A stretch of 32,819 nucleotides of DNA. Source: a virus. This document shows, in pieces, positions 1 to 31,511 of this stretch. Positions within the stretch are counted from its first letter, which is position 1, and the number at the start of each line of letters is the position of its first letter. The notes under the pieces are model-generated. The model was not told the DNA's origin. It saw only the letters and a program-made list of their open reading frames with translations, and made no database searches. The stretch lies in the IMG/VR virus record IMGVR_UViG_3300010411_000008, positions 1 through 32,819 of that record; one strand, given 5' to 3'. The position numbers were made by a program, and so were the translations under genes.

Positions 1-99
1 GACACCGCGAGTGAGTCGCTGATGCCGGCGGTGAATGGTTGATGAAATGATCCACTATTATCTCGTCTACAGAAAGCGCCGTCATACCACCGCGGTGCG
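1..99. repeat. Terminal direct repeat, copy 1 (circular junction)
   Basis: Bases 1-99 are identical to 32721-32819. An exact 99-base overlap at the two ends is the usual signature of a circular molecule assembled with an odd k-mer, and the gene ending at 32742 continues cleanly across the join towards parM at 128. A true packaged terminal repeat of 99 bp is possible but less likely. Confidence 0.93.
3..97. promoter_or_regulatory. CACCGC inverted-repeat cluster upstream of parM
   Basis: CACCGC occurs at 3-8, its reverse complement GCGGTG at 28-33, and a perfect 10-bp palindrome CACCGCGGTG at 88-97. This makes four half-sites in the 125 bases before the ParM start. Actin-type partition operons usually carry the ParR-binding centromere and operator here. 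Assigning that role to these sites is inference, and the half-sites are short in GC-rich DNA. Confidence 0.35.
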
Positions 100-127
100 A
101 CTGAAGCGAAGAGAAAAGGAGAAGAAC

Positions 128-1165
128 ATGATTCGCATCGGACTTGATCCCGGTTTCGGCAATTTCAAGATCGCCACCGTCTCGCAGACCTCCCAGGTCG
201 CCCTCGTCCCCTCCGTCGTCGGCGTGGGAGAAACCGACCTGGGCCTCCTCTCCCTGGGCAAGCTGGGCCGCCGTCGGCGGCATCGCCCCGACCAGGTGAC
301 CTTCGGCGGCGTCTCCTATCTGGTCGGCGAGAACGTGGCCCGCTTCGCCCGCCCCGTCCAGCGCATGGACTTCCTGCGCCTCTCCGATGGTCCCGAGCTG
401 CGCGCCCTCTTCTACGACGCCGTCTTCCGCCTTCTGGGCCAGGGTTACCACCAGGCCGCCCTGATCATCGGCCTGCCCGTGGAGGTCATGGCCGACCGCC
501 AGCAGGCCCTGGATACCCTGCGCTCCCTGAAGGCCTGGATGGTCGGCCAGCACTACTTCAGCGTCAACAGCTCACCCGTCGTTTTGGAGGTGACCCAGGT
601 GCGCGTCATGGCCCAGCCCGCTGGCGCTTTCTTCGCCTGGGGCCTGGACAACTCCGGCCACTGGTCCCGCCCCAAGGCCGACCTCAAGGCCCCCGTCGCC
701 ATCTGCGATATCGGCTTCAACACCCTGGACCTCTTCGCCGTGCAGGGTGGAGAGGTCGTGGGTCGGTTCACGGGAGGCGATACGGCCGGCATGCGCCGCG
801 CCGCCGAACTGCTTATCAACGCCGTGCAGGGACGCTATGGCGTGGACCTCTCCCTCCACGAGGCCGATGCCCTGCTGCGCCAGAAACGTCCCGCCCTCTA
901 CACCCCCCAGGGCGAGGCCGACCTGCGCACCTTCGTCACCCAGGCCCTGGACACCACCGCCGCCGGCGTGCTTCACTTCGTGGAACGCCACTGGGGCAAC
1001 GGACGCCAATTCGCCCACCTGCTCTTCACCGGCGGTGGGGCCGAGACGCTGCGCGAGGCGCTGCTGCGCCAGTATCCCCATGGGGTGGTCCTGCCCGAAC
1101 CGATCACGGCCAATGCCCTGGGCCTGGCCCGCTATGCGCGGCGGGTCTTCAAAGCGGATGGGTAG
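128..1165 (+). CDS. ParM-like actin-fold plasmid segregation ATPase
   Basis: A 345-residue protein of the bacterial actin family (ParM/StbA/Alp type). ParM proteins polymerise with ATP and push plasmid copies apart when capped by ParR bound to the centromere. The phosphate-1 loop is visible near residues 5-14 (GLDPGFGNFK), the phosphate-2 motif near 193-201 (CDIGFNTLD), and the adenosine motif near 300-304 (FTGGG); the C-terminus has PEPITANALGLARYARR, a normal ending for this family. The reading frame is open from 35, but the ATG at 128 follows AAAAGGAGAAGAAC and begins exactly at the conserved first strand, so it is preferred. The next gene encodes a ribbon-helix-helix protein, matching the parM-parR order. 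Codons strongly favour C at the third position, unlike the phage structural genes. Confidence 0.88.
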   Translation: MIRIGLDPGFGNFKIATVSQTSQVALVPSVVGVGETDLGLLSLGKLGRRRRHRPDQVTFGGVSYLVGENVARFARPVQRMDFLRLSDGPELRALFYDAVFRLLGQGYHQAALIIGLPVEVMADRQQALDTLRSLKAWMVGQHYFSVNSSPVVLEVTQVRVMAQPAGAFFAWGLDNSGHWSRPKADLKAPVAICDIGFNTLDLFAVQGGEVVGRFTGGDTAGMRRAAELLINAVQGRYGVDLSLHEADALLRQKRPALYTPQGEADLRTFVTQALDTTAAGVLHFVERHWGNGRQFAHLLFTGGGAETLREALLRQYPHGVVLPEPITANALGLARYARRVFKADG

Positions 1166-1233: not shown

Positions 1234-1647
1234 ATGGCTTGTCTGGGAAAAACTGTCGAACTCAAAATTCGCTTCTACCCAGGCCAGGACGATGAGGTGA
1301 TCCGCTGGCTGGAGCAGTTCAACGATAAGCCCTATGGGGTGAAGTCGCAGGCGGTGAAAGAGGCGCTGCGCAGGGGCATTGGCGATGCGGCGGCAAGACA
1401 GGAAAGCGCCGCTCCCCTGGACCTGGCCGAGGTACGCCAGGTGGTGGAGGCTGCCGTCGCCACCGCCCTGGCCCATTTCGAAGGTCAGGTAATCGGTGCT
1501 GCCGCTGCCAACCCACCCCAGGAGGACGAGGAGGTAGAAGACATCATGGACCAACTGGAGGCAGCGTTGGTCCTCGGTGATGATGAGGAGGACCAAGCGC
1601 GTTCACAGGAGCTGGTGGAGCAGATGGATAATGCCAAAGCGTATTAA
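1234..1647 (+). CDS. ParR-like ribbon-helix-helix DNA-binding protein
   Basis: A 137-residue protein. Residues 6-50 (VELKIRFYPGQDDEVIRWLE, then SQAVKEALRRGIG) have the strand-helix-helix layout of ribbon-helix-helix proteins. A variable middle and a very acidic C-terminal tail rich in D and E follow. ParR proteins have this layout: the N-terminal ribbon-helix-helix binds centromere repeats and the C-terminal tail contacts ParM filaments. Position directly after parM supports the call. The ATG at 1234 follows GAGGAAGAAAG. The family is inferred from fold pattern and context; overall sequence similarity in such proteins is normally very low. Confidence 0.72.
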   Translation: MACLGKTVELKIRFYPGQDDEVIRWLEQFNDKPYGVKSQAVKEALRRGIGDAAARQESAAPLDLAEVRQVVEAAVATALAHFEGQVIGAAAANPPQEDEEVEDIMDQLEAALVLGDDEEDQARSQELVEQMDNAKAY

Positions 1648-2014
1648 ACGGGAGCGCACAAAAGGCTGGCGTATGCCGGAGGGCGCGGTTTACGTAGGTC
1701 GTCCAACGCGGTGGGGAAATCCTTACCGCGTTGGACCACACATGACACCCGAACAAGCGGTTCAAGAGTATCGTTCGTGGCTGCGAACGATGCCGACCTT
1801 GGTTGCCGATGCGAAGCGGATGTTGGCCGGCAAAGATTTGGTCTGCTGGTGTCCCCTTGACCAGCCATGCCACGCCGATGTTCTGCTAGAACTAGTAAAT
1901 TCACCTGCCCCTCCAAGACAGGAAAAGGAGAAACACCATGTTGACACAACGCATGCAAATTCACGCGATTGCCAGGCGGATGAAGGGAATCGAGACGGAT
2001 CTCTGCGTGGATGA
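1631..2014 (+). CDS. DUF4326 domain protein
   Basis: A 127-residue protein with the hallmark pieces of DUF4326: VYVGRPTRWGNPY near residues 17-29 and KDLVCWCPLDQPCHADVLLEL near 75-95. The biochemical role of DUF4326 is not established; it is common in phages, plasmids and high-GC bacteria. The conserved cysteines of the CWC and PCH segments suggest metal binding or catalysis, which is inference. The ATG at 1631 overlaps the end of the ParR-like gene by 17 bases; the frame is open further upstream but the domain needs none of that. The last 30 or so residues lie beyond the usual domain end, are polar and unstructured, and are encoded in DNA that also encodes the start of the next gene. Confidence 0.72.
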   Translation: MPKRIKRERTKGWRMPEGAVYVGRPTRWGNPYRVGPHMTPEQAVQEYRSWLRTMPTLVADAKRMLAGKDLVCWCPLDQPCHADVLLELVNSPAPPRQEKEKHHVDTTHANSRDCQADEGNRDGSLRG

Positions 2015-4340: not shown

Positions 4341-5910
4341 TCCGGTGCAATTGGCGCGGCAGGAATTGGCCAGACGGGAGTTGGCACGACGGAAGCTGAT
4401 TTTCTTCGCCTGGTATACCTTCCGAGGGTATCGGGCTTCGCGGGTGCATGAATTGCTGGCGGAATATCTGGAGCAGGTGGAGCGGTTCGTGGCCACGGGA
4501 GGCAGGGAGGGAATCGGGCGGCTGATGGTGTTCATGCCGCCCAGGCACGGCAAGTCGGAGCTGGTCAGTGTGCGCTTCCCTGCTTGGTTCCTGGGCCGAA
4601 ATCCCGACTGTCGGGTGATTCTGGCCTCATGCACGGCTGACCTGGCGGTCGGCTTCAGCCGCCGGGTGCGGAACATCATCATGGACAGTCCATACAGGGC
4701 CGTTTTCGGCGATCGCTCTGGTAAGGCGGAGCCGATTGTCATTTCTGACGACAGTCGGGCGGCGAACGCCTGGGATTTTGCTAGGCATCGAGGGGGGATG
4801 ATCGCCGCCGGGGTAGGGGGCGCGATCATTGGACGGGGCGCGCACCTGGCCATCATTGATGACCCACTCCGCGACCGGCGGGACGCCGAGAGCAAGGCAA
4901 CCCGTGATGCGGTTGATGACTGGTATCGCTCTACACTCTATACTCGGCTTGAAGAGGGGGGGGCGGTGGTGTTAATGCACCAGCGCTGGCATGAAGACGA
5001 CCTGGCCGGGCGGTTGCTGCGGCGGATGGTAGAGGAAGACGGTGCGGACCAGTGGACGGTGCTCTGCCTGCCCGCATTGGCCGAGGATTGGGCCACAGCA
5101 GTGGAGCCTGATGATGTGATCGCGGCAGTGCGGGATGGTTGGTGGAAAGGGGTAGACCCCCTCCAGCGGCAGCCAGGGGAGGCCCTATGGCCAGAGAAAT
5201 ACCCAGTGAAGGTGTTGCAGGCAATCCACAGCAACATCGGGGGATATGAGTGGGATGCTCTCTATCAGCAGCGGCCACGGCGGCTAGAAGGGGCGATGAT
5301 TAAGGCGCACAAGATTCACGTCATCAGCGCTGATGATGTTCCCAAAGATTTGCGAGTAGTACGCTACTGGGATCTGGCAGTCAGCGGGAGAGAGAAGGCG
5401 GATTTCATCGCTGGTGGCAAGGTAGGGCGGGGTAAGGACGGGCGCATCTATATCTTGGACATGGTCCGGCTGCCCGGGCCGTGGGCGGACGCCCGCTCAC
5501 GGATTATTGATACGATGCTCCGGGATGGGGCAGCAGTGGAACAGGGGGTGGAGGTAGCCGGGCAGCAAGGCGGCTACTATCAGGAATTGCAGCGGGATGA
5601 GCGACTGCAGGGGATCACTCTGAGGGCAGTCAATCCCCGCGATGTGGGCAATAAAGAGGTCCGAGCCAACGTATGGGCTTCCCGCATTGAGGATGGGCTG
5701 GTCTACATGATCAAAGCGCCGTGGAATGACGAGTTTATCTCCGAATGTCTGGCCTTCCCGCGTGGGGCACACGATGACCAGGTGGATGCGGTCAGCGGGG
5801 CTGTACAAATGCTGCCCGCGTACGTAAAATTTGAGGATGTGCCCCAGGCTCCTGATCGGCCCAGCCGCTGGGATCCATGTGGACAAGGGAGAATAGCGTG
5901 GCGGATGTAG
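4333..5910 (+). CDS. terL: Terminase large subunit (packaging ATPase-nuclease)
   Basis: A 525-residue DNA-packaging motor. The N-terminal ATPase shows Walker A MPPRHGKSE at residues 68-76 and Walker B LAIIDD at 172-177. The C-terminal RNase H-fold nuclease shows RYWDLA with D347 and HDDQVDA with D481/D482/D485. It docks on the portal, pumps DNA into the prohead and cuts the concatemer. Order, length and motifs match the Terminase_6 type of large subunit seen with Mu-like portals. The start at 4333 overlaps the small-subunit stop as ATGAGTGA; in-frame ATGs at 4324 and 4327 cannot be excluded. Confidence 0.95.
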   Translation: MSDPVQLARQELARRELARRKLIFFAWYTFRGYRASRVHELLAEYLEQVERFVATGGREGIGRLMVFMPPRHGKSELVSVRFPAWFLGRNPDCRVILASCTADLAVGFSRRVRNIIMDSPYRAVFGDRSGKAEPIVISDDSRAANAWDFARHRGGMIAAGVGGAIIGRGAHLAIIDDPLRDRRDAESKATRDAVDDWYRSTLYTRLEEGGAVVLMHQRWHEDDLAGRLLRRMVEEDGADQWTVLCLPALAEDWATAVEPDDVIAAVRDGWWKGVDPLQRQPGEALWPEKYPVKVLQAIHSNIGGYEWDALYQQRPRRLEGAMIKAHKIHVISADDVPKDLRVVRYWDLAVSGREKADFIAGGKVGRGKDGRIYILDMVRLPGPWADARSRIIDTMLRDGAAVEQGVEVAGQQGGYYQELQRDERLQGITLRAVNPRDVGNKEVRANVWASRIEDGLVYMIKAPWNDEFISECLAFPRGAHDDQVDAVSGAVQMLPAYVKFEDVPQAPDRPSRWDPCGQGRIAWRM

Positions 5911-7916
5911 CGCTGAACGAGGCGGGGAAAAGCGGACTGTTGACATTCGCTGGCCAGGTGACCGAGACGTACACGCCGAAACTGTACTGGCCAGAGGCAT
6001 ACAGCGTATACGATGAAATGCGTCGCCGCGATCCTACCATCCGCACAATGTGGAATGCGCTGATCATGCTCTCCCGGACGGCGAGCTGGTACGCTGAGCC
6101 AGGCGGTGTATCTGATGCGGACAAACAGGCGGCGGAGTTTCTCCAGATGTGCCTGGAGGACATGAGTCACACGCTGGAGGATGCGATTGAAGATGCACTC
6201 TCATGCGTGCTGTTCGGCTGGAGTTGGCTGGAGATTTGCTACAAGCGGCGAGAAGGGGCAGGCGGGAAACATAAGAGCATCTATAGCGATGGACGTATCG
6301 GCTGGCGTAAGTGGGCGATGAGACGGCAGTCCTCCTTTGCTCGCTGGGATTTTGATGAAGAGGGCGGCGTCCGAGGCTTATACCAGCGCCCAGCGCCAGA
6401 CTATGAAGAGCGATTCATCCCGATTGAGAAATCACTGCACTTTACTAGCCAAAGAGATGGCGGCAATCCCGAGGGCCTGGCACTGCTGGAGAGCATCTAT
6501 GAGGTCTGGTATTACCTGAAGAATTACCAGATCATCCAGGGCATTGGCTGGCAACGAACGTTTGTGGGGCTGCCAGTTTTCGAGTTCGAGGAGACGCCCT
6601 CCAGTGATGATAGGGCGAAAGTGGAGTCGGTGGGCCAGGCGCTGACAGTGGATGAGAAGCAGTACGTCAGCGTGCCAAGGGGGATCAAATTCCGTCTGGA
6701 GAGCGCGCAGAATGCTGGGGCGGCAGCACTGCTGGAGACAATTCGACATTATCGGCTGCTAATGCTGCAGACTCTGCTCGCCGATTTCATCGCCTTGGGC
6801 ACGGGACAGACTGGGTCCTGGGCGTTGGGGGCGGACAAGAGCCAGTTGTTCCTGATGGCCGTGGATGGGTATCTGGACCGGATTGCCTCAGTGATCAATC
6901 GCTTCGGCGTGCCCCGTCTGATGGAGTACAACGATTTTCCGGGCATGACGGCGCTGCCACGCCTGGTGCACACAAAAGTCGAGAAGCCGTCGCTGACGCA
7001 GCTTGGCTCCTGGCTGCAGCAGGTCTCTGGATTGCTCAACTGGACGCCGGAGGATGAGAACTGGCTGCGGCAACGGAGTGGAATGCCGACGTTGGCAGTC
7101 TCGGAAAGAACCTCGCCAATGGGTAATGGAGAAATGGCTGAGTTCGCTGAGGCAGAGGGTTTCACTGGGCGCGATGAGGAGCGGGCCAAGATTGAGAAGT
7201 CGCTGGCTGATGAGATCGCTCGTTTCCTGGTTGAACAGCGTAAGCGGATCGTGGAGGAGGTCCAGGCGGGGCGGAATCCCGCCGAGGCCGATGATTTCTG
7301 GGAGCAGGAAAGGGAACGGCTCCGGCAGTCGCTCATGGCAGCGTTAATCAAGCATATCAATGAACTGGGGCGGATGACCGTAGAGGACATTGAGAAATCC
7401 CTTACCTCCGGCGCCGATTGGTCGCTGATCAATGTTGATGCATTGAAATGGGCGCGGAAATATGTAGGGGATAAAATCAGAGACATCACTGAAACAACGC
7501 GCTCATCGGTACGGGAGGCAGTGGCCTCGTGGATCGAGACCGGGGCGGCGCTGCCAGACCTGGTGAAGGTTCTGGAGCCCACATTCGGGCGTAGTCGGGC
7601 GGAGATGATCGCCGCGACAGAAGTGACTGATGCATTTGCTGCAGCAAATGACCTGGCGTGGCGGGAGATCGGGTTGCCGCCAGTGGCCTTCAGGCCAGCG
7701 GCGCACCCGCGGTGCCGGTGCTACCTGCGGCCGGTGCGATTGACCAACGGTGAGTGGGTAGTCGTTTGGTCTACTGTTAAGGATGAATTGGTATGCGAAC
7801 GGCCCATTACCACGCCGTGGGGGCGAGTGAACGGTTGCCAGGCTCTGCAGGGCATAATCGTTTCCGAGGGAGATTACCTCGGTCGCCCGCTGCGAGAGGT
7901 GCAGAGAGGTGGCTGA
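5898..7916 (+). CDS. Portal protein (Mu gp29/DUF935-like) fused to a MuF-type head protein
   Basis: A 672-residue fusion. Residues 1 to about 430 are a DUF935/Mu gp29-like portal, the dodecameric ring through which DNA enters the head. Residues about 440-610 match MuF/SPP1 gp7 head-morphogenesis proteins: long helices, RSRAEMIAATEVTDAFAAAND, and the HPRCRCYL signature with H603, C606 and C608. Unusually, the W-T-x-D-E-x-V-C segment that normally precedes HPxCRC comes after it here (WSTVKDELVC, C633) together with GCQALQG (C647). The GTG at 5898 has AGGGAGAATAGC in front; the ATG at 5877 in the same frame has no ribosome site. It overlaps terL by 13 bases. Confidence 0.88.
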   Translation: MADVALNEAGKSGLLTFAGQVTETYTPKLYWPEAYSVYDEMRRRDPTIRTMWNALIMLSRTASWYAEPGGVSDADKQAAEFLQMCLEDMSHTLEDAIEDALSCVLFGWSWLEICYKRREGAGGKHKSIYSDGRIGWRKWAMRRQSSFARWDFDEEGGVRGLYQRPAPDYEERFIPIEKSLHFTSQRDGGNPEGLALLESIYEVWYYLKNYQIIQGIGWQRTFVGLPVFEFEETPSSDDRAKVESVGQALTVDEKQYVSVPRGIKFRLESAQNAGAAALLETIRHYRLLMLQTLLADFIALGTGQTGSWALGADKSQLFLMAVDGYLDRIASVINRFGVPRLMEYNDFPGMTALPRLVHTKVEKPSLTQLGSWLQQVSGLLNWTPEDENWLRQRSGMPTLAVSERTSPMGNGEMAEFAEAEGFTGRDEERAKIEKSLADEIARFLVEQRKRIVEEVQAGRNPAEADDFWEQERERLRQSLMAALIKHINELGRMTVEDIEKSLTSGADWSLINVDALKWARKYVGDKIRDITETTRSSVREAVASWIETGAALPDLVKVLEPTFGRSRAEMIAATEVTDAFAAANDLAWREIGLPPVAFRPAAHPRCRCYLRPVRLTNGEWVVVWSTVKDELVCERPITTPWGRVNGCQALQGIIVSEGDYLGRPLREVQRGG

Positions 7917-17110: not shown

Positions 17111-20100
17111 ATGGCGCTGACAATCACTGTAGGCGGCAATGACATAACGACGTATGTGGACTGTAGATCCATAGTGATCGAGGAGGTGGGCACGGAGCTG
17201 GTGGCCACCTGCTCGTTCAATGTGCGGGATCATACCGGGACGGTTTCCATCGCTACGAAGGATGCTGTGACGATCACCGACGACGGCACTACGCTATTTG
17301 CTGGCGAAGTAGCCGAGGTGATGATGGGGCAGGAGGGCGTGGCCAAGACGTGGTCGGTGCGCTGCCAGGACAACAACATTCTCTTGGACGAGCGGGTAGT
17401 CGCCTCGGAGAGCTATAGCGCAGGGCAGGCGGACAGCGCTATCATCAATGATCTGTTCACCAAGCACCGTAGCGACATCAACTCCACCACGTACGTGGCC
17501 ACGATTGATGCTTCGATGGAGGCTGTGGCTTTTGAGGCACTGACCCTGCGTGAGTGCATGGATGACATCTGCCGCCGCACCGGCGGCAGGTACTATGTGG
17601 ATTACGATAAGAATCTGCATTACTTCACTACCGAGAACAACCCCGCTGGTTTTTCCCTCTCTACATCGCCAGACTATTCCACCTCGTTCCCCTTTGGCGG
17701 CTTCAAAAAGGTCGAATCGGTCACTCGCCTGGCCAATAAAATCTATGTGCTGGGCAAGGAAGTTTCGGGCTGGGTGCAAGATGATGATTCGATCACGGCT
17801 TACGGCGAGCGGCACGCTGTGAGCCGCGATCGGCGGATCACCACATCGCAGGGCGTGACTAACCGGGGCAACGCAATCCTGGATCGCTACGATTTACCCA
17901 GGGAGTCGTATGAGCTTCACTGTTGGCAGGATGGTCTGCGCGCTGGCATGTCAGTCCAGGTGATCAACGAGACCTGGGGGATTAATTCCACCTTCTTCAT
18001 CCGCAAACTGCGGATGGAGGTCATCGATACGGCGGGCGAACAGCGGCGTTATACATTGCAGCTCAACGATGAAGCGCCGGATCCAGCGAAAATCGCCCGA
18101 GCTCGGGACCTGCAGGTGGCCACGCTGGAGCAGGCAGTTGTGGAGGTCTATGATACAACATTCGACACTGACGCCCCGGCCACTCCGGCGTTCGAGGTTG
18201 GCAATCTGACCTCTGGTGTGACCGAGGACGCTGATGGTCACCAGATCGTGTGGGTACAGGCCACCTGGGGGTTGGTCTCTGATTCAGATCTGGACCACTA
18301 TCAGATTCAAATCTCCACCTCGAGCGATTTCAGCGGCTATGCCATTACACGCAATCATCCGGCAGGTGGGGACCGGATAGAGAGGTTCGAGGGGGTCCTA
18401 GGGAACACGGTCTATTACATCCGCGTTCGAGCGGTGGACTGGGTTGGAAACGAATCCTCCTGGGCGGGACCCCTCAGTATCACCACTGCCAAAGACACCA
18501 CAGCTCCAGCCCAGGTGACCGGACTGAATGCGGCGGCCAGCCGCACTCTTATCGGCCTGAATTGGACTGCCAATTCTGAAGCGGACTTGGCCCACTATGA
18601 GATCCAGCGGCACAAGGAGGGAGAGTCTTTTGCTACCATTGCTTATGCGAAACTAAACTTCTACATCGACCAGGATTTCACTGACAGCGAGATCGCCAAC
18701 GGTGACACATTCTACTACCGTGTGCGAGCCATAGATACCTCAGGCAACGAAGGTACCTGGTCGGCTGAGGTGAGTGCGACCCTGACGCAGATCGGCACTG
18801 ACCACATCGCCGCGGCATCCATCACTACAGCACTCCTAGCCGCTGGGGCGGTGACCGCAGAGAAGATTTCAGTGTCACAACTATCGGCTATCTCTGCCGA
18901 CCTGGGGAACATCGCCGCTGGGGCGGTGACCGGGGCCACAATCCGTACTGCAGCCTCAGGGGCACGGGTTCAGCTGGATTCTACTGAAGGGATCCGCTGC
19001 TTTAATTCTAGCGGGATCATGACCTTCCAGGTCAACGTCGACGGTTCCGGGCAGATCGGAGCTTCTGATGGGGATGTCCCGCCGTTGACTTGGAATGCTG
19101 ATGGGCAATTCAACAAGATCCAGGCCAACCAATTAGAGATTGGCCAATCCTTCTTCACTTCTGCTGATGGTCTTCTGCTTCTAGACATGCAGAAGATCAT
19201 CAAAGAGGGGTCAACCAACTACGTCATTGGCTCTCGTGGACAGAGAGCCAGGTTGTCAGGAGCGCTGCATGTGGAGCAGGGCCGCTGGGTGGGAAGGCAA
19301 GGGATAGTCATCGAGGTGGCAACGACCAACCTGATCTCCAATCCATCCTTCGAGGTAGATACCACGGGCTGGACACTGAATCAGGGAGGCTCGGGTGGGG
19401 CAATCGCCCAGGATACTTCGGTGTCCAGATACGGCGTCGCCAGCTTGCGGGTAGACAAAGGCACATCTTGGACACAAGCCTACTCTGGAACTGTCACGGT
19501 GGGCGATGGAGAGACGATTACGGCCAGTGCTTGGGTGTATCTGGACGAGATACCAGCAACCAACACTGTCAGTATCAATATCCGTGACATAACCAATGCA
19601 ACAACTAGGGCCAGCGCCTACACAAACCAAGCAGGATGGGCCAGGCTGAGTTGTACATGGAAGAATGACACTGGGTCGAGTGTTAGTGTACGGGTTCAGC
19701 TTGTGATGAACACCGCTGCTACGAATAGCTCCGCATGGTTTGACGGCGTTCAGCTGGAAAAGAAGGCTTATGCCACTTCCTACTGTGATGGTAGCCTGGG
19801 GGATGGCTACTCTTGGAGTGGGACAGCCCATGCCAGTACCAGTACCAGGACGGTGACCGTTCTCACTGTCCCCGCATCAGGCAACCTCAACGTGCTGTCC
19901 TCACAGGCTGGCACGATCGCAATCCGTTTCCGGCTTCCCTATGCCAGTGGGGAGGCTTGGACCCAATGGGGACGGCTGTTTGATTACGGCAACTACACGT
20001 ATCCCATCACCCAGGACATGTTTGCCTGTTATTTTGACGAGGATGGTGACACCATCAAAGTGGAAATTCGGAGGGCCAGTGATAGTAGCAATAAGAACAC

Positions 20101-21043
20101 GGGCTGGCGGACGGTATCCTACGAGGAAGGGGAAGAAATCCTGCTTGTCGTAGCATATGATTCCACATCACTGGAACTGTACTGGAACGATACGGAGATT
20201 GGCAGCATAACCAGTCCCAATCTGTTCTCCACTTACAACTTCAATGAGTTCCACATCGGAGCGGCAGATGCCAGTGGTAACAACATGTCCAACATGATTT
20301 GCAGCGAATTCGCTACCTTCAACCGCAAGCTCTCTGCGGCGGAAGTGGCTCAGCTCTACAACCTCCAAAGGCCACTGGTGGACATGGGGGCCACAGACAA
20401 ACCAGGCATCTACATCCTGGATGGACAGTTCCGACTCCTGAGCAGCCAGACAGGGAACCGAATTGAGATAACGCCAGAAGGATTCAAAACCATTGATAGT
20501 GATGATGAAGAATGCGCTGTTCACAATCAGGATGGATTCTACATTGTTGATTCTGAATCGTATGAGGACATTCGGTCATACAAGTTTGTGAATAGCTCTG
20601 GTACCTTGCTATCTCGGTTGGCCGGGGCTCTAGATGCAACAGACAACTATGTGATGCTCCGGGCGGAAAGCATTGCCTCTCGTGCCTCACACAACATGCT
20701 GGAGGCATTGGCACCTGCCGGCCAGCAGGGCCGGGTACGCCTGTACGCTGGTTCAGGGACATCATACGGATACTTTGACCTGAGTATCAACAGTTCTGGG
20801 GGAGGGACGAACTACGCAATGCTGGTCGGCCCAGGACTCAGGATTTCAAAGAGTCTGTATGTTGGAGGAGTCGGGACTGAGGCCGACGACGATGATATAT
20901 GGTGTGATGGTGAGATTAGTACTGATGGGGGCAGTACTAAGTGGAAATTGGGAGGGTACTCTGCAAGAGCTGTTACAACTACGGGCTACGTGTCTGTGTG
21001 GATTAACGGGGTCCAACACAAACTGGTATGTAAGAGAATGTAG
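17111..21043 (+). CDS. Multidomain tail-tip / receptor-binding protein
   Basis: A 1310-residue protein. Residues 1-340 look like a baseplate hub/tail-associated domain (TITVGGNDITTYVDCRSIVI, HSP-like strands). Two fibronectin type III-like domains follow at about 350-456 and 457-560, each ending in RVRAVDWVGNESSW or RVRAIDTSGNEGTW. Residues 560-700 contain the TDHIAAASITTALLAAGAVT and ISADLG repeats of central tail-tip proteins. A carbohydrate-binding-like domain starts near 739 with NLISNPSFEVDTTGW, a LamG/concanavalin-type domain spans about 920-1090, and a C-terminal strand-rich region ends the chain. It is the likely host-surface recognition protein. The start lies one base after the tape measure stop. 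Confidence 0.83.
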   Translation: MALTITVGGNDITTYVDCRSIVIEEVGTELVATCSFNVRDHTGTVSIATKDAVTITDDGTTLFAGEVAEVMMGQEGVAKTWSVRCQDNNILLDERVVASESYSAGQADSAIINDLFTKHRSDINSTTYVATIDASMEAVAFEALTLRECMDDICRRTGGRYYVDYDKNLHYFTTENNPAGFSLSTSPDYSTSFPFGGFKKVESVTRLANKIYVLGKEVSGWVQDDDSITAYGERHAVSRDRRITTSQGVTNRGNAILDRYDLPRESYELHCWQDGLRAGMSVQVINETWGINSTFFIRKLRMEVIDTAGEQRRYTLQLNDEAPDPAKIARARDLQVATLEQAVVEVYDTTFDTDAPATPAFEVGNLTSGVTEDADGHQIVWVQATWGLVSDSDLDHYQIQISTSSDFSGYAITRNHPAGGDRIERFEGVLGNTVYYIRVRAVDWVGNESSWAGPLSITTAKDTTAPAQVTGLNAAASRTLIGLNWTANSEADLAHYEIQRHKEGESFATIAYAKLNFYIDQDFTDSEIANGDTFYYRVRAIDTSGNEGTWSAEVSATLTQIGTDHIAAASITTALLAAGAVTAEKISVSQLSAISADLGNIAAGAVTGATIRTAASGARVQLDSTEGIRCFNSSGIMTFQVNVDGSGQIGASDGDVPPLTWNADGQFNKIQANQLEIGQSFFTSADGLLLLDMQKIIKEGSTNYVIGSRGQRARLSGALHVEQGRWVGRQGIVIEVATTNLISNPSFEVDTTGWTLNQGGSGGAIAQDTSVSRYGVASLRVDKGTSWTQAYSGTVTVGDGETITASAWVYLDEIPATNTVSINIRDITNATTRASAYTNQAGWARLSCTWKNDTGSSVSVRVQLVMNTAATNSSAWFDGVQLEKKAYATSYCDGSLGDGYSWSGTAHASTSTRTVTVLTVPASGNLNVLSSQAGTIAIRFRLPYASGEAWTQWGRLFDYGNYTYPITQDMFACYFDEDGDTIKVEIRRASDSSNKNTGWRTVSYEEGEEILLVVAYDSTSLELYWNDTEIGSITSPNLFSTYNFNEFHIGAADASGNNMSNMICSEFATFNRKLSAAEVAQLYNLQRPLVDMGATDKPGIYILDGQFRLLSSQTGNRIEITPEGFKTIDSDDEECAVHNQDGFYIVDSESYEDIRSYKFVNSSGTLLSRLAGALDATDNYVMLRAESIASRASHNMLEALAPAGQQGRVRLYAGSGTSYGYFDLSINSSGGGTNYAMLVGPGLRISKSLYVGGVGTEADDDDIWCDGEISTDGGSTKWKLGGYSARAVTTTGYVSVWINGVQHKLVCKRM

Positions 21044-22307: not shown

Positions 22308-22662
22308 TGATTCGTTCCAAGTCTATAGGGAGCTGAATAGGCTGTTGCCATTTGTCTGCCAGCTATTGACGGATTTGGAACGGAATATTCAAAGTCAAAG
22401 ACTGATACACCATGAGCTGAAGAAGGGCCTGCAGGATGCGGTGCCAGCTTTGCATCACATCCGGCAGGCCCTGTTGGAGGCGGAGGATTGGGAGCTGTAT
22501 GTATTGATGCACACAGCTTGGGTACGGGTTCATAACATTGTGAGTTGGTTGGAGCGAACCATCTCTGGAGCGCAGCTCGAGCACGATGCGTTGGTTGAAG
22601 ATGTTCAGGCGTTGCATCTCGCTCTGGAACAGGCCAGGGAGATGCTGTTACAAAGAGAGTAA
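22294..22662 (+). CDS. Helical protein ending the late operon
   Basis: A 122-residue, almost entirely helical protein (MSITDDSFQVYRELNRLLPF to the ALEQAREMLLQRE end). No family recognised. The ATG follows AAGAGGACGCACG and overlaps the previous gene by 14 bases. Its last 15 bases overlap the 3' end of the convergent recombinase gene, leaving no room for a conventional terminator, so late and switch transcripts may interfere. Confidence 0.58.
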   Translation: MSITDDSFQVYRELNRLLPFVCQLLTDLERNIQSQRLIHHELKKGLQDAVPALHHIRQALLEAEDWELYVLMHTAWVRVHNIVSWLERTISGAQLEHDALVEDVQALHLALEQAREMLLQRE

Positions 22663-23400
22663 GTTATCCACAGGACTTGCGCGGTGATGTGCGGCTGCGC
22701 AATCGGTCTGAGCGATTTTCAGGTATCGCCTGACCATATCCAGACTGCTGTGCCCCAGGAGTTGTTGTAACGTGAAAATATCACCTCCATTGCGGAGATA
22801 TGAAATGGCAAATGTGTGACGGAAGCGATGAGGGTGTGTGTTGGGCACACCTGCCCGATCCCCCAGACGCTGCAGGTGCTTCGCCAGGTGGCGACGCTTG
22901 AAGGGACGACCTGTCATGGTGGCAAACAAGACATCGTTAGAATCAGAGGCAGCGCGGAAAGTCACATACTGCCACAACGCACGCCGTGTGTGTTTACCAA
23001 TGAACACGACTCGCGCTTTCCCCTGGCCGCTGTTGAGGCGGCTTTTTCCCCGGACGTGAACCATCCCACTTTTGAGATCCACATCTGAAATACGCAAGTT
23101 GCAGAGTTCAGTGGTGCGGACACCTGTGTCGAGCAGAAATAGAATCAGTGCCCGATCACGCAATTGTAGTTCATGTGGGCGAGTATGAGTTGTACGTGGT
23201 CGGGTGCTCCAGGGTTTGGAGTGTTTCACGGCCTCCAGGAGTGCTCGAATTTGCTCTGCGCTGAATGGCTCAATGGCTGGTGGTTTTGAAAGAACCAAGC
23301 TAATCGTCGAGTGAGAAATGCCAGCCCGGCGTCCCAACTCGCTGTAGCTCCAACCTCGCTTTTCGATTTCCTGATTGAGCCACTCTGAAAAATCTCTCAT
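22648..23400 (-). CDS. XRE-type HTH fused to a tyrosine recombinase catalytic domain
   Basis: A 250-residue protein. Residues 5-38 are a clear XRE/Cro-type helix-turn-helix (SYSELGRRAGISHSTISLVL) where integrases normally have the helical core-binding domain. From about residue 45 it is a tyrosine recombinase catalytic domain with a complete set: R95, K119, H191-x-x-R194, H217 and nucleophile Y226 (MVRRYLKI). It is the only minus-strand gene. The start ATG is six bases after a TATACT -10 box and lacks a Shine-Dalgarno, so the mRNA is probably leaderless, as for lambda cI from PRM. The inference is a combined repressor and integrase/resolvase; a recombinase using the HTH only for arm binding is the simpler alternative. 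Confidence 0.88.
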   Translation of the reverse strand: MRDFSEWLNQEIEKRGWSYSELGRRAGISHSTISLVLSKPPAIEPFSAEQIRALLEAVKHSKPWSTRPRTTHTRPHELQLRDRALILFLLDTGVRTTELCNLRISDVDLKSGMVHVRGKSRLNSGQGKARVVFIGKHTRRALWQYVTFRAASDSNDVLFATMTGRPFKRRHLAKHLQRLGDRAGVPNTHPHRFRHTFAISYLRNGGDIFTLQQLLGHSSLDMVRRYLKIAQTDCAAAHHRASPVDNLLSL

Positions 23401-23422: not shown

Positions 23423-23504
23423 TCGTTGACCTAATAACAATTCTCGTGAGAAACTTGACAAAAATTGTTAATTCGTGTATAATGTTATTGCGTCAACGAA
23501 TTCG
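23423..23504. promoter_or_regulatory. Nested operator-like inverted repeats of the switch region
   Basis: Four symmetrical elements surround the early promoter: TCGTTGAC (23423-23430) with GTCAACGA (23492-23499); TAACAATT (23435-23442) with AATTGTTA (23463-23470); TTCTC-GT-GAGAA (23441-23452), just upstream of the -35; and the palindrome CGAATTCG (23497-23504). Arrays like this are typical of phage repressor/antirepressor control regions. The HTH-recombinase and the ribbon-helix-helix protein on either side are the likely ligands. Confidence 0.65.
23455..23483 (+). promoter_or_regulatory. Consensus early promoter (TTGACA - 17 bp - TATAAT)
   Basis: A perfect sigma70 promoter: TTGACA at 23455-23460, a 17-base spacer and TATAAT at 23478-23483. 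It faces the early operon starting at 23542. AACTTGACAAA at its -35 also occurs at the 2588 promoter. Such a strong promoter implies tight repression in the prophage state. Confidence 0.88.
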
Positions 23505-23541: not shown

Positions 23542-23769
23542 ATGCCTGAAAAAGCAGTGGCGAAGACGATTTCTGTGTATCCTCAGGACTGGGATCTGAT
23601 CGTAAAGTTCGCTAAGTGTCACAGGATCAGCAACAGCTTGGCACTGCGCCTGATTCTCCAGCAGTGGCGGAATCATCGGCAAGTTGAGCAGGCGCATCGG
23701 CAGGGCCAGCTCACCGATGCTGAGCGTGACCGGCGGACGCAGGAAATCAGCTTGCTTGACCTGGAGTGA
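23542..23769 (+). CDS. Ribbon-helix-helix (CopG/Arc-like) regulator
   Basis: A 75-residue protein. KTISVYPQDWDLIVKFAKCH and ISNSLALRLILQQW (residues 8-42) follow the strand-helix-helix pattern of CopG/Arc repressors. It is the first gene from the strongest promoter, the place where temperate phages put Cro or an antirepressor. It may bind the nested repeats at 23423-23504 and repress either direction. The ATG follows AAGGAGGACGGT. Confidence 0.7.
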   Translation: MPEKAVAKTISVYPQDWDLIVKFAKCHRISNSLALRLILQQWRNHRQVEQAHRQGQLTDAERDRRTQEISLLDLE

Positions 23770-25181: not shown

Positions 25182-25360
25182 TGAGACGTTATTGGGTACC
25201 GAGCACCTGTCGGCAACTGCGAGAGGAGCTGCGCAAGGCGGGGATCACCCGCATCAGCGGACGGCCTCTCAGCCGGGTGAGGAAGAAGCAATTGTATGCC
25301 GTTTTCTTTCGCCTGCGGGAAAAGCAGTTGGAGGAAGGTAATGACGTGGCAAAGAGCTGA
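25178..25360 (+). CDS. Small basic SAP/HeH-like protein
   Basis: A 60-residue basic protein: TCRQLREELRKAGITRISGR followed by SRVRKKQLYAVFFRLREKQL. The order of a helix, a glycine turn, and a second basic helix is like SAP/HeH DNA-binding motifs. ATGs at 25178 and 25181 follow GAAGGA. It overlaps the recombinase start by 20 bases and may be an excisionase-like or DNA-bending helper, which is inference from its size, charge and neighbour. Confidence 0.5.
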   Translation: MMRRYWVPSTCRQLREELRKAGITRISGRPLSRVRKKQLYAVFFRLREKQLEEGNDVAKS

Positions 25361-26276
25361 AGAGACATGGTTGGGAACAGCGGCTCGGCGCTCTGCTCAC
25401 ACAGAACGTGCATACCGCAATGCTCTCAACGATTTTAAGCGTTTTATCTCCCCTCGAGGGCTGGGTGAGATTGGTGGTGGTGACGTCGCTGCCTGGGCGA
25501 ACGATTTAGCCCAGCGTGGTCTGGCCGAGTCCACGATCAACGCTCGCCTGGCTGCACTCTCATCATTCTACAGATTCTGTATGACCTCGTTCACCGATGA
25601 GCACGGCATCGGCCTCATCGGATTCAACCCCGTCAGCGCGGTGGAACGCGCGCGCATCACTCCTTATGGCAAGTCTCGTCCATTATCCCCGGAGCAGGTG
25701 CGCACCCTGCTTGATGCTGTGAATCGTTCCACGGTGCAGGGGATGCGGGATTATGCCATGATCCTGATGGCCGTCTTCACTGGTCGGCGGTCGGCGGAGA
25801 TTCGGCATCTGCGCTGGGGTGACATTATGCACACGGCTGATGGCCGTGTGAGATACCACTGGCGCGGGAAAGGGGGCAAGGAACGATGGGATGATCTGCC
25901 GCAGCCGGTTTACGATGCAATCTGTCTTTATCTGGAAGTGGCTGGTCGAACGGATTTACACACCGACGATTACATTTTTGTATCTCTCAACGGGGACAAC
26001 GAACCGCTATCCTCGGAGTGGTATAACCAAACAGTAAAGCGCTACGCTCAAGCAGCGGGACTGCCTGCCTGGGTGCACGCCCACACGCTCCGGCACACGG
26101 CCGCGCACCTGCGGGTGCGTGCTGGCCAGAGCGTGCTGGAGATTCAGCGCCTGCTAGGCCACGCGAATCTGCGCATCACGCAGATTTATCTGGACGCCCA
26201 GTGGGGCTTTCAGGATACAGGCTGGCAAGCGGTTCAGGAAGTGCTTGCTGGCAGCAACGAGGTGGATAGACAGTAG
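25341..26276 (+). CDS. Tyrosine recombinase (XerC/D-like), complete
   Basis: A 311-residue integrase-family protein with both usual domains: a helical core-binding domain at residues 1-105 (SAHTERAYRNALNDFKRFIS) and the catalytic domain after SRPLSPEQVRTLLDAVN. The catalytic set is R150, K177, H248-x-x-R251, H274 and Y283. It cuts and rejoins DNA at specific sites through a 3'-phosphotyrosine. In this element it could integrate the phage or resolve plasmid multimers. The ATG at 25341 follows GGAGGAAGGTA inside the preceding gene. It is the last gene of the early operon and separate from the HTH-fused recombinase. Confidence 0.92.
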   Translation: MTWQRAEETWLGTAARRSAHTERAYRNALNDFKRFISPRGLGEIGGGDVAAWANDLAQRGLAESTINARLAALSSFYRFCMTSFTDEHGIGLIGFNPVSAVERARITPYGKSRPLSPEQVRTLLDAVNRSTVQGMRDYAMILMAVFTGRRSAEIRHLRWGDIMHTADGRVRYHWRGKGGKERWDDLPQPVYDAICLYLEVAGRTDLHTDDYIFVSLNGDNEPLSSEWYNQTVKRYAQAAGLPAWVHAHTLRHTAAHLRVRAGQSVLEIQRLLGHANLRITQIYLDAQWGFQDTGWQAVQEVLAGSNEVDRQ

Positions 26277-29797: not shown

Positions 29798-30165
29798 CCA
29801 CACTCGACCGCTTCATCAAAAGTGAACAACTGAGCCTGGCGGATTTGTTAACCGAGGCCGGTCATCAGTCTGGTGATCAAGCACAGCCCAAACCGGACAA
29901 CGGGGCGAATCTCGTCTACCACGTCTTCCGCCCCGGCAGCCCGGGCCAGAAGGTGCCCGACCTGACCCCGGATCAGGTCCTGGCCTGGGCCCTGGACGCC
30001 TTCCGCAAGCAGTTCGGGGAATCACCCTGGGTGGTGGTCTGCCACCCCACCTGGGCCGAGGCGGTGCAGGCCGCGCTCAACGGGAACAGCATCGCCGTTG
30101 TCCCCGTGGGCGGCTGCCTGGTCCCAGAGCTGTGGCTGGCTCGACCGGAAGGAGCAAAGCCATGA
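29794..30165 (+). CDS. Unknown alpha/beta protein at a composition boundary
   Basis: A 123-residue protein. Residues 1-38 are polar; the rest looks like a compact fold: VYHVFRPGSPGQKVPDLTPD, ALDAFRKQFGESPWVVVCHP and SIAVVPVGGCLVPELWLARP. No family recognised. The ATG overlaps the preceding stop (ATGA) and the gene runs into the FtsK-like gene with a 4-base overlap. The first 40 codons look like phage DNA, and from about 29910 the third positions become strongly C-rich, as in the FtsK-like and parM genes, suggesting a recombination joint within or near this gene. Confidence 0.6.
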   Translation: MTTLDRFIKSEQLSLADLLTEAGHQSGDQAQPKPDNGANLVYHVFRPGSPGQKVPDLTPDQVLAWALDAFRKQFGESPWVVVCHPTWAEAVQAALNGNSIAVVPVGGCLVPELWLARPEGAKP

Positions 30166-31511
30166 GCGACAAACGAGCAGAGGCGCACGACCGGGCATCT
30201 CTCCTGGTGCAAACCGGACAGGCTCTCATCCAGGCTGCCGCCGCCGGAGTCTTCGGCGGCAAGCCCATCACCATCCACCGCGTAGACAGCATCGCCGGCC
30301 CCCGCGCCGGCGGCGTCAATCTCTACGCCGGGGTGCAGACCGGCCTCCTGGCCCGCGCCCTGGGCGCCGACAACGCCGCCCTGGCCGCGCAGTTCATCGC
30401 CTGGCCCTTCCCTCCCAACTCCCGGCCCGCCGTCTATCTCGCCGGCCGTGCCGTCCGCGTCGAGGCCCCCTGGCCGCCACAACTGGCCCAGAACCACATC
30501 CGCCTTCAGGCCGTCGCCCGCAGGCCCCAAGGCGATGGCCGCTGGGCCGCCGGCCTGAACGAACACGGCCAGACGGTGATGATCGGCCTGGACGACCGCA
30601 TCCCCCACTGGCTCTACGCCGGCACCACCGGCTCCGGCAAGACCGTCGGCCTCCATGCCGCCGCCCTCCAGCTCTGCCGCGACCCTAACAATCGCCTGGT
30701 GCTTCTGGACGGCAAGTGGGGCGGTGGCCTGGGCCCCCTGGTCAACCTGCCCGGCACCGTCGGCCCCCTGGCCACGGACGTGCCCTCCGCCCGCGCCGCC
30801 CTGGCCTGGGTCAATCAGGAGTTGCAGCGACGCTATCGCATCATCGCCGCCGAAGGCCCCCAGGCCGCAGGGCAGTTCCCGCGCATCATCGTCATCTTCG
30901 ACGAGTTCCAGGAGTTCGCCGACGATCCCGCCATCCGGGAATGCCTGCGGCGCATTCTGAACAAAGGCCGGGCGGCGCACATCCACGCCCTGCTGGCCAC
31001 CCAGCATCCCACCAAGGCCGCCTTTGGCGATGACGGCACCATGCCCCGCAACCTGGTGGGGCGCATGGCCCTGCGCGTCACCGACGCCAAGGCCAGCGAG
31101 GTCGCCCTGGGCGACTCCTTCCCCCGCGCCGACCGACTGCTGGGTGCCGGCGACGCTTACGTCAAGGGCCCCCAGGCCATCCACCGCACCCAGCTCGTGC
31201 TGGTGGACGAGCGTGACCTGGCCGAGGTCGAGCGCCAGGGGCCCTTGTTGGAGACCTGGCCCGAGCTCGAGGCCGAGGCCCTGGGCCTCGAGCCCGGCCG
31301 CCCTTCACCCTGGCCCCAACCGGTCGAGGTGGGGATGGGACTCATCGCCGCCGCCGAGAACCACGGCCGGCCCTGGCTGAAGAACGCCATTGCCGCCGAA
31401 GGATTGAACCCGCCCGGTTCGGGCAGAGCCGGTGAAATCATGCGTCTGGGACAGGCCGCTCTGGCCTGGCTGAAGGAACAGGGCTGGACCCTGGTCAAGA
31501 TGACTGCCTGA
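30162..31511 (+). CDS. FtsK/SpoIIIE/TraB-like DNA translocase
   Basis: A 449-residue ATPase of the FtsK-HerA group. Walker A is AGTTGSGKTVGL near residues 153-164, Walker B IIVIFDEFQEF near 242-252, and the downstream ATQHPT sensor is present. It has no N-terminal membrane helices; residues 1-135 are a separate Ala/Gly-rich domain. The C-terminal end (RAGEIMRLGQAALAWLKEQG) may be a small winged helix. FtsK-like proteins pump double-stranded DNA; on actinobacterial plasmids a single TraB protein of this kind carries out transfer. Possible roles here are transfer, dimer resolution with the recombinases, or segregation with ParM. The ATG at 30162 follows GGAAGGAGCAAAGCC. Confidence 0.85.
   Translation: MSDKRAEAHDRASLLVQTGQALIQAAAAGVFGGKPITIHRVDSIAGPRAGGVNLYAGVQTGLLARALGADNAALAAQFIAWPFPPNSRPAVYLAGRAVRVEAPWPPQLAQNHIRLQAVARRPQGDGRWAAGLNEHGQTVMIGLDDRIPHWLYAGTTGSGKTVGLHAAALQLCRDPNNRLVLLDGKWGGGLGPLVNLPGTVGPLATDVPSARAALAWVNQELQRRYRIIAAEGPQAAGQFPRIIVIFDEFQEFADDPAIRECLRRILNKGRAAHIHALLATQHPTKAAFGDDGTMPRNLVGRMALRVTDAKASEVALGDSFPRADRLLGAGDAYVKGPQAIHRTQLVLVDERDLAEVERQGPLLETWPELEAEALGLEPGRPSPWPQPVEVGMGLIAAAENHGRPWLKNAIAAEGLNPPGSGRAGEIMRLGQAALAWLKEQGWTLVKMTA

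Follow-up and report, generated by a model that had tools for sequence, protein, structure and literature searches.

Mycobacteriophage D29 is a lytic phage derived from a temperate, L5-like parent by the loss of 3.6 kb, one end of the deletion lying inside the repressor gene (PMC5712189). MrpR (YopR), the master repressor of SP-beta, has a tyrosine-recombinase fold in which the core-binding domain has been kept and the catalytic R and H residues have been lost (PMC10516654). Mycobacteriophage BPs shows integration-dependent immunity: its attP is located within the repressor gene, and repressor and integrase are separate proteins (PMC4557955). Some temperate phages have swapped integration for partition, as in the extrachromosomal parABS mycobacteriophages (PMC7157519). 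When the literature was searched for repressor-integrase or XRE-recombinase fusions, no such report was found among the papers listed.

The DNA analyzed here, referred to as the window, is the whole of virus record IMGVR_UViG_3300010411_000008 (32,819 nucleotides), and a direct repeat of 99 bp at its two ends makes a complete genome probable. Positions 22648 to 23400 of the minus strand hold an open reading frame (ORF) of 250 amino acids, the N-terminus of which is that of an XRE repressor, followed by the catalytic domain of an integrase. Judged from the ORF list, it is the sole convincing minus-strand gene, in agreement with the original prediction, which had also recognized an XRE helix-turn-helix (HTH) and, joined to it, an intact catalytic domain of a tyrosine recombinase. 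This domain content was borne out by Pfam, PHROGs and family profiles. Phage_integrase of Pfam covers residues 71–230 (E = 6e-35), the XRE-type HTH matches at about residues 8–57 are weak and below the Pfam cut-offs (HTH_31, 2e-4; HTH_3, 6e-4), and PHROG_769, a ‘transcriptional repressor’, matches the ORF at 5e-5.

To these searches we added two profiles, one built from 27 XRE repressors of related phages and the other from 66 full-length integrases of the relatives. Residues 2–39 match nodes 3–40 of the 66-node repressor profile with 52 bits, a score that places the HTH well above chance, and the match ends there. Residues 1–39 (23284–23400, minus strand) thus comprise XRE helices 1–3 and are homologous, at 38–56% identity, to separate repressor genes of related phages; this homology to the phage group's own repressors rules out that residues 1–40 are part of an ordinary core-binding domain, which the original prediction had named as the outcome that would speak against it. 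The integrase profile is matched from residue ∼39 to residue 247 (nodes 96–304 of 306, 305 bits), the match being opened by the linker PAIEPF, so that similarity begins with a P-x-I-x-P-F linker at residue 40/41 and residues 41–250 (22651–23280, minus strand) make up the tyrosine-recombinase catalytic domain. The two profiles dovetail at residues 38–41, where we place the predicted deletion junction (23278–23289, minus strand). No match to the integrase-profile nodes before 96, which represent the core-binding domain, was found in the ORF, and because the repressor match stops at node 40 of 66, the C-terminal (oligomerisation) part and the full helical domain of a repressor are also absent. 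The HTH had been proposed to replace the core-binding domain; that domain is indeed missing, but the arrangement does not look like one of design, as the junction cuts both parent genes mid-protein, after XRE helix 3 in one and after the recombinase core-binding domain in the other.

The catalytic half is well preserved. The ORF has R95, H191, R194, H217 and Y226, which do not vary among the aligned relatives. As catalytic lysine, K119 appears likelier than K127, because its nearest relatives retain GKSR or SKGR around the former and the latter is R in L054; the catalytic set originally proposed (R95, K119, H191, R194, H217, Y226) is therefore present and conserved in the relatives. The domain holds 34 of 35 strongly conserved columns, and its evolution is not accelerated (terminal branch of 0.28 vs a mean of 0.49). 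Since it evolves no faster, the fusion is probably recent, yet an intact catalytic domain and a short branch would fit a recent fusion and a functional one alike. Like MrpR, the ORF places a tyrosine-recombinase fold at a phage lysis-lysogeny switch. However, its catalytic set is intact, the core-binding domain is absent and the N-terminus is an XRE HTH, and a repressor of the MrpR type was rejected on the grounds of the intact catalytic residues and the absent core-binding domain.

In relatives identified by their terminase, the 250-residue protein finds its matches at two separate places, a recombinase gene and an XRE gene. The recombinase matches span residues ∼40–246 at 43–52% identity in the best four, in open frames of 350–410 aa, while residues 1–51 match the XRE gene at 35–55% identity. 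The closest integrases are those of L053–L055 (56–61% identity; L053 61%, L054 56%), and L053 and L054 have the repressor-integrase layout seen in G010. The gene order of G010 is that of the window, with a primase, a second recombinase, small genes and a 75-aa early protein on one strand, and it continues with a divergent XRE repressor, an accessory gene, the integrase and then a tail-fibre gene. The XRE gene of the relatives is thus syntenic with our ORF, which supports the earlier view that the ORF occupies the repressor position. Repressor and integrase lie on the same strand in 26 of the 29 loci with both genes in view, at a median gap of 1,062 bp. The XRE repressors of the relatives are full-length (103–216 aa) and the recombinase downstream has its own core-binding domain; an N-terminal domain is present in 66 closed relatives of 295–420 aa. 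Each half of the ORF therefore has clear, syntenic homologues among the XRE (CI/Cro-type) repressors and tRNA-targeting tyrosine integrases of related phages (L053–L055 and others). These phages have a gene for each, complete in its domains, with attP in between, whereas in the window there is a single fused ORF.

Two features of the relatives may be recorded here. In L047, the accessory gene that separates repressor and integrase (5856–6569, plus strand) codes for a protein of membrane type containing a long repeat rich in TPTPT, which may be located at the surface or act in superinfection exclusion. Another related phage, G006 (L049, L052), carries three tyrosine recombinases and an XRE repressor within 37 kb.

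The fused form itself was seen only in the window. An alignment-based scan found none among the best 80 viral relatives, and a survey of 396 genomes of the class Anaerolineae, 88 of which gave ∼137 matches, likewise showed none, no match there beginning before residue 16. The suggested check for further proteins of XRE-tyrosine recombinase architecture thus came back empty, with none among about 220 relatives. A query-based viral scan returned distant catalytic-domain matches only, all tblastn matches in phages and plasmids were below 60% identity, and the junction DNA was not found in other viral contigs. A 223-aa ORF at a contig end in L116, with a short linker only and no HTH, does not lend itself to interpretation. 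A search for an intact close relative with primase, second recombinase and capsid queries gave none covering the region, and the two nearest contigs, with about 80% DNA identity, end before it.

The surroundings of the integrase genes suggest what else is missing. Among the 48 relatives with enough upstream sequence, 34 have a tRNA T-arm motif 24–272 bp upstream of the integrase on the same strand, against a background, taken from the same loci, of 0.03 per 600 bases. In 15 viral loci and two contigs from Anaerolineae, L038 and L039, complete tRNA genes are found at the 5′ end of the integrase. Because the 5′ end adjoins tRNA genes or a T-arm motif (attP) in most relatives, we regard the recombinase as an integrase, and the family to which the catalytic half belongs is, to judge from its sequence context, one of tRNA-targeting integrases with attP just upstream. 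This family points to Chloroflexota (Anaerolineae) as hosts. When attP was sought as a tRNA-type motif, no T-arm motif was found near 22648–23400, and the sole match in the window, at 31401 inside an FtsK-like gene, fits chance (1.7 expected). The latter gene (30132–31511, plus strand) encodes an FtsK/SpoIIIE-like ATPase (PHROG_1358) and is present alongside an Xer-like recombinase and a ParM-like gene. The arrangement resembles that of BPs in that repressor and integrase sequences are neighbours on the same strand, with an early gene diverging from them, but in the window attP is absent and the two ORFs have become one. Integration-dependent immunity was rejected, since the attP-like motif, which lies 24–272 bp upstream of the integrase in the relatives, is absent.

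The regulatory region opposite the ORF appears intact. The consensus early promoter that had been predicted there is a sigma-70-type promoter (TTGACA-17-TATAAT, 12/12 match; 23455–23483, plus strand) of a rightward early operon. It is bracketed by an inverted pair of 14-mers, candidate operators by their sequence, which lie within a 17-nt inverted repeat of 88% identity: GTTGACCTAATAAC at 23425–23438 on the plus strand and GTTGACGCAATAAC at 23484–23497 on the minus strand, the second overlapping the transcription start region. The core of the repeat, GTTGACNNAATAAC, is found at just these two sites of the window at up to two mismatches. A comparable 13-mer pair was not seen in most relatives tested. 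The first rightward gene (23542–23769, plus strand) encodes a small, probably DNA-binding protein of 75 aa that has homologues of 37–43% identity at the same position in L053 and L047; in the relatives, the homologues diverge from the XRE gene.

The halves being separate in the relatives, the two profiles dovetailing at residues 38–41, parts of both parents missing and no other fused form being found, it is highly likely that the ORF arose from two ancestral genes by deletion. The ancestor would have had a rightward early operon, a divergent XRE repressor, one or more accessory genes, attP in a tRNA-like sequence and a tRNA-targeting integrase, in this order. A deletion would have taken the C-terminal half of the repressor, the accessory gene(s), attP and the core-binding domain of the integrase, joining the repressor start in frame to the integrase end at residues 38–41. 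From the spacing and gene lengths in the relatives, we estimate that roughly 1–2 kb of DNA is missing. With the core-binding domain and attP gone, integration by this route would likely be lost, and, given that the fusion is real, there is little doubt that the chimera is non-functional for integration. As for repression, the XRE domain ends after helix 3 and has neither its later helices nor the C-terminal part, so that repression would be poor or nil, although we are less sure of this; if the fusion is real, the chimera is likely to be mainly non-functional as a repressor. The phage would then be mainly or wholly lytic, or would persist as an unintegrated prophage relying on its partition gene. 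As a whole, we consider the probable explanation of the locus to be that a temperate phage underwent a deletion within its lysogeny module which fused the two genes in frame, with integration and normal repression probably lost. The closest parallel to the proposed deletion appears to be D29, where a natural deletion ending in the repressor gene likewise turned a temperate lineage lytic, as is presumed here, and left the flanking genes intact. However, D29 has kept a working integration apparatus, while the deletion proposed here extends into the integrase and leaves repressor and integrase as one continuous frame.

No close relative with an intact module was found from which the ends of the deletion could be read at base resolution, and the intact catalytic residues, the open frame and the 34 of 35 conserved columns would also be expected of a functional protein. 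A mis-assembly at the junction is a further possibility: reads from an intact repressor and an intact integrase might have been joined wrongly, the real phage having both genes, as could be suspected of a metagenomic contig with a fusion seen once and an exact junction that recurs in no other viral contig. We consider this quite improbable in view of a join that is in frame, on a single strand and in the syntenic place, of the lack of an evident repeat common to the parent genes in the relatives that could cause a false join, and of a contig that closes on itself through its 99-bp repeat. The original proposal, in which a single protein acts as repressor of the lytic genes and as recombinase on phage DNA and so couples the choice of lysogeny to integration or resolution, draws on the domain content, the intact catalytic residues, the gene position and the operator-like pair. 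It is hardly tenable, as core-binding domain and attP are gone, the relatives have two separate genes and no second fused copy was found. A purpose-built link between repression and integration is likewise not supported, given the separate halves in the relatives, the unique architecture, and the loss of the core-binding domain, attP and the C-terminal half of the repressor.

A further alternative is that the chimera works, as a repressor only. In this case a recombinase helix (residues 48–59) would complete the XRE fold, the catalytic domain would provide protein-protein contacts and the operator pair would be bound, in an unintegrated prophage partitioned by ParM. An AlphaFold model of all 250 residues (pLDDT 91), the N-terminus of which rests on little alignment depth since the XRE rows of alignment A2 were misplaced by MAFFT, shows HTH helices at 4–15, 19–26 and 30–37, then a helix at 48–57 and the catalytic domain; among PDB structures, XerA and XerH match it best. 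In this prediction, of the kind that had been suggested as a check on the packing of the HTH, the position of XRE helix 4 is taken by a recombinase helix. Modelled alone, residues 1–63 form four helices (pLDDT 81) resembling XRE proteins, with Foldseek matches to SinR, HipB, C.BclI, P22 c2 and 434 Cro (TM 0.66–0.77 over 52–61 residues) at weak E values of 0.01–0.15. According to this model, the first helix of the recombinase could stand in place of XRE helix 4, but the input alignment of the 63 residues had itself set XRE helix 4 on the recombinase helix and so favoured a four-helix result. The intact operator-like pair and promoter, the ParM-like gene, the lack of any sign of relaxed constraint and the replacement of the integrase by parABS in about 20% of cluster A mycobacteriophages (PMC7157519) are in line with such a repressor. 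Against it, the C-terminal half of the repressor is gone and nothing points to dimerisation of the catalytic domain at an operator of 14 bp; the unique architecture gives no evidence of long-term selection, and a recent deletion accounts equally well for the lack of decay. We therefore consider a repressor-only chimera unlikely. It is slightly less likely still that the folded chimera is a new repressor born of the repressor-integrase fusion that serves a ParM-partitioned, non-integrating prophage and possibly cleaves DNA at its operators.

The gene at 35–1165 (plus strand) encodes a ParM/Alp-like actin (PHROG_691, 4e-40; Pfam ALP_N, 1e-15) and may allow the phage to persist unintegrated, by analogy with the parABS mycobacteriophages, which likewise combine the loss of integration, presumed here, with a partition gene. 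However, the gene of the window is a ParM-like actin and not ParABS, and a plasmid state is here only a possibility, the gene being a possible phage-plasmid trait. It was also found in 6 of 48 relatives, 3 of the 11 without a T-arm motif and 3 of the 37 with one, counts that are too few for a claim. Directly after it lies a gene for a 137-aa protein (1234–1647) without a Pfam or PHROG family match, by its position a possible ParR-like partner, and a gene for a DUF4326 protein (3e-27; 1577–2014, plus strand) adjoins the partition region. The replication region encodes a second, full-length tyrosine recombinase with a SAM-like core-binding and a catalytic domain according to Pfam (25296–26276, plus strand), located between the small early genes and the primase. 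Homologues of 35–57% identity occur in several relatives that also hold a separate integrase, beside the primase where checked, and this recombinase may be a resolvase. The gene at 17111–21043 (plus strand) codes for a tail/fibre protein of 1310 aa that has carbohydrate-binding (CBM_4_9) as well as laminin-G-like domains.

On the present comparison, the locus fits best among lysogeny-module deletion derivatives, with the chimera as an in-frame scar, and it serves as a warning that a conspicuous fusion of domains, met once in a phage from a metagenome, can turn out to be such a scar. If the chimera does work, it would show a new regulator arising through the fusion of a repressor and an integrase. 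Our survey also reveals a family of tRNA-targeting integrases that is widespread among Anaerolineae and the phages of this class, the order repressor-attP-integrase being conserved. The window is apparently a natural snapshot of a temperate phage that sheds its lysogeny module in a single step, both parent genes being identifiable and the chimera still readable.
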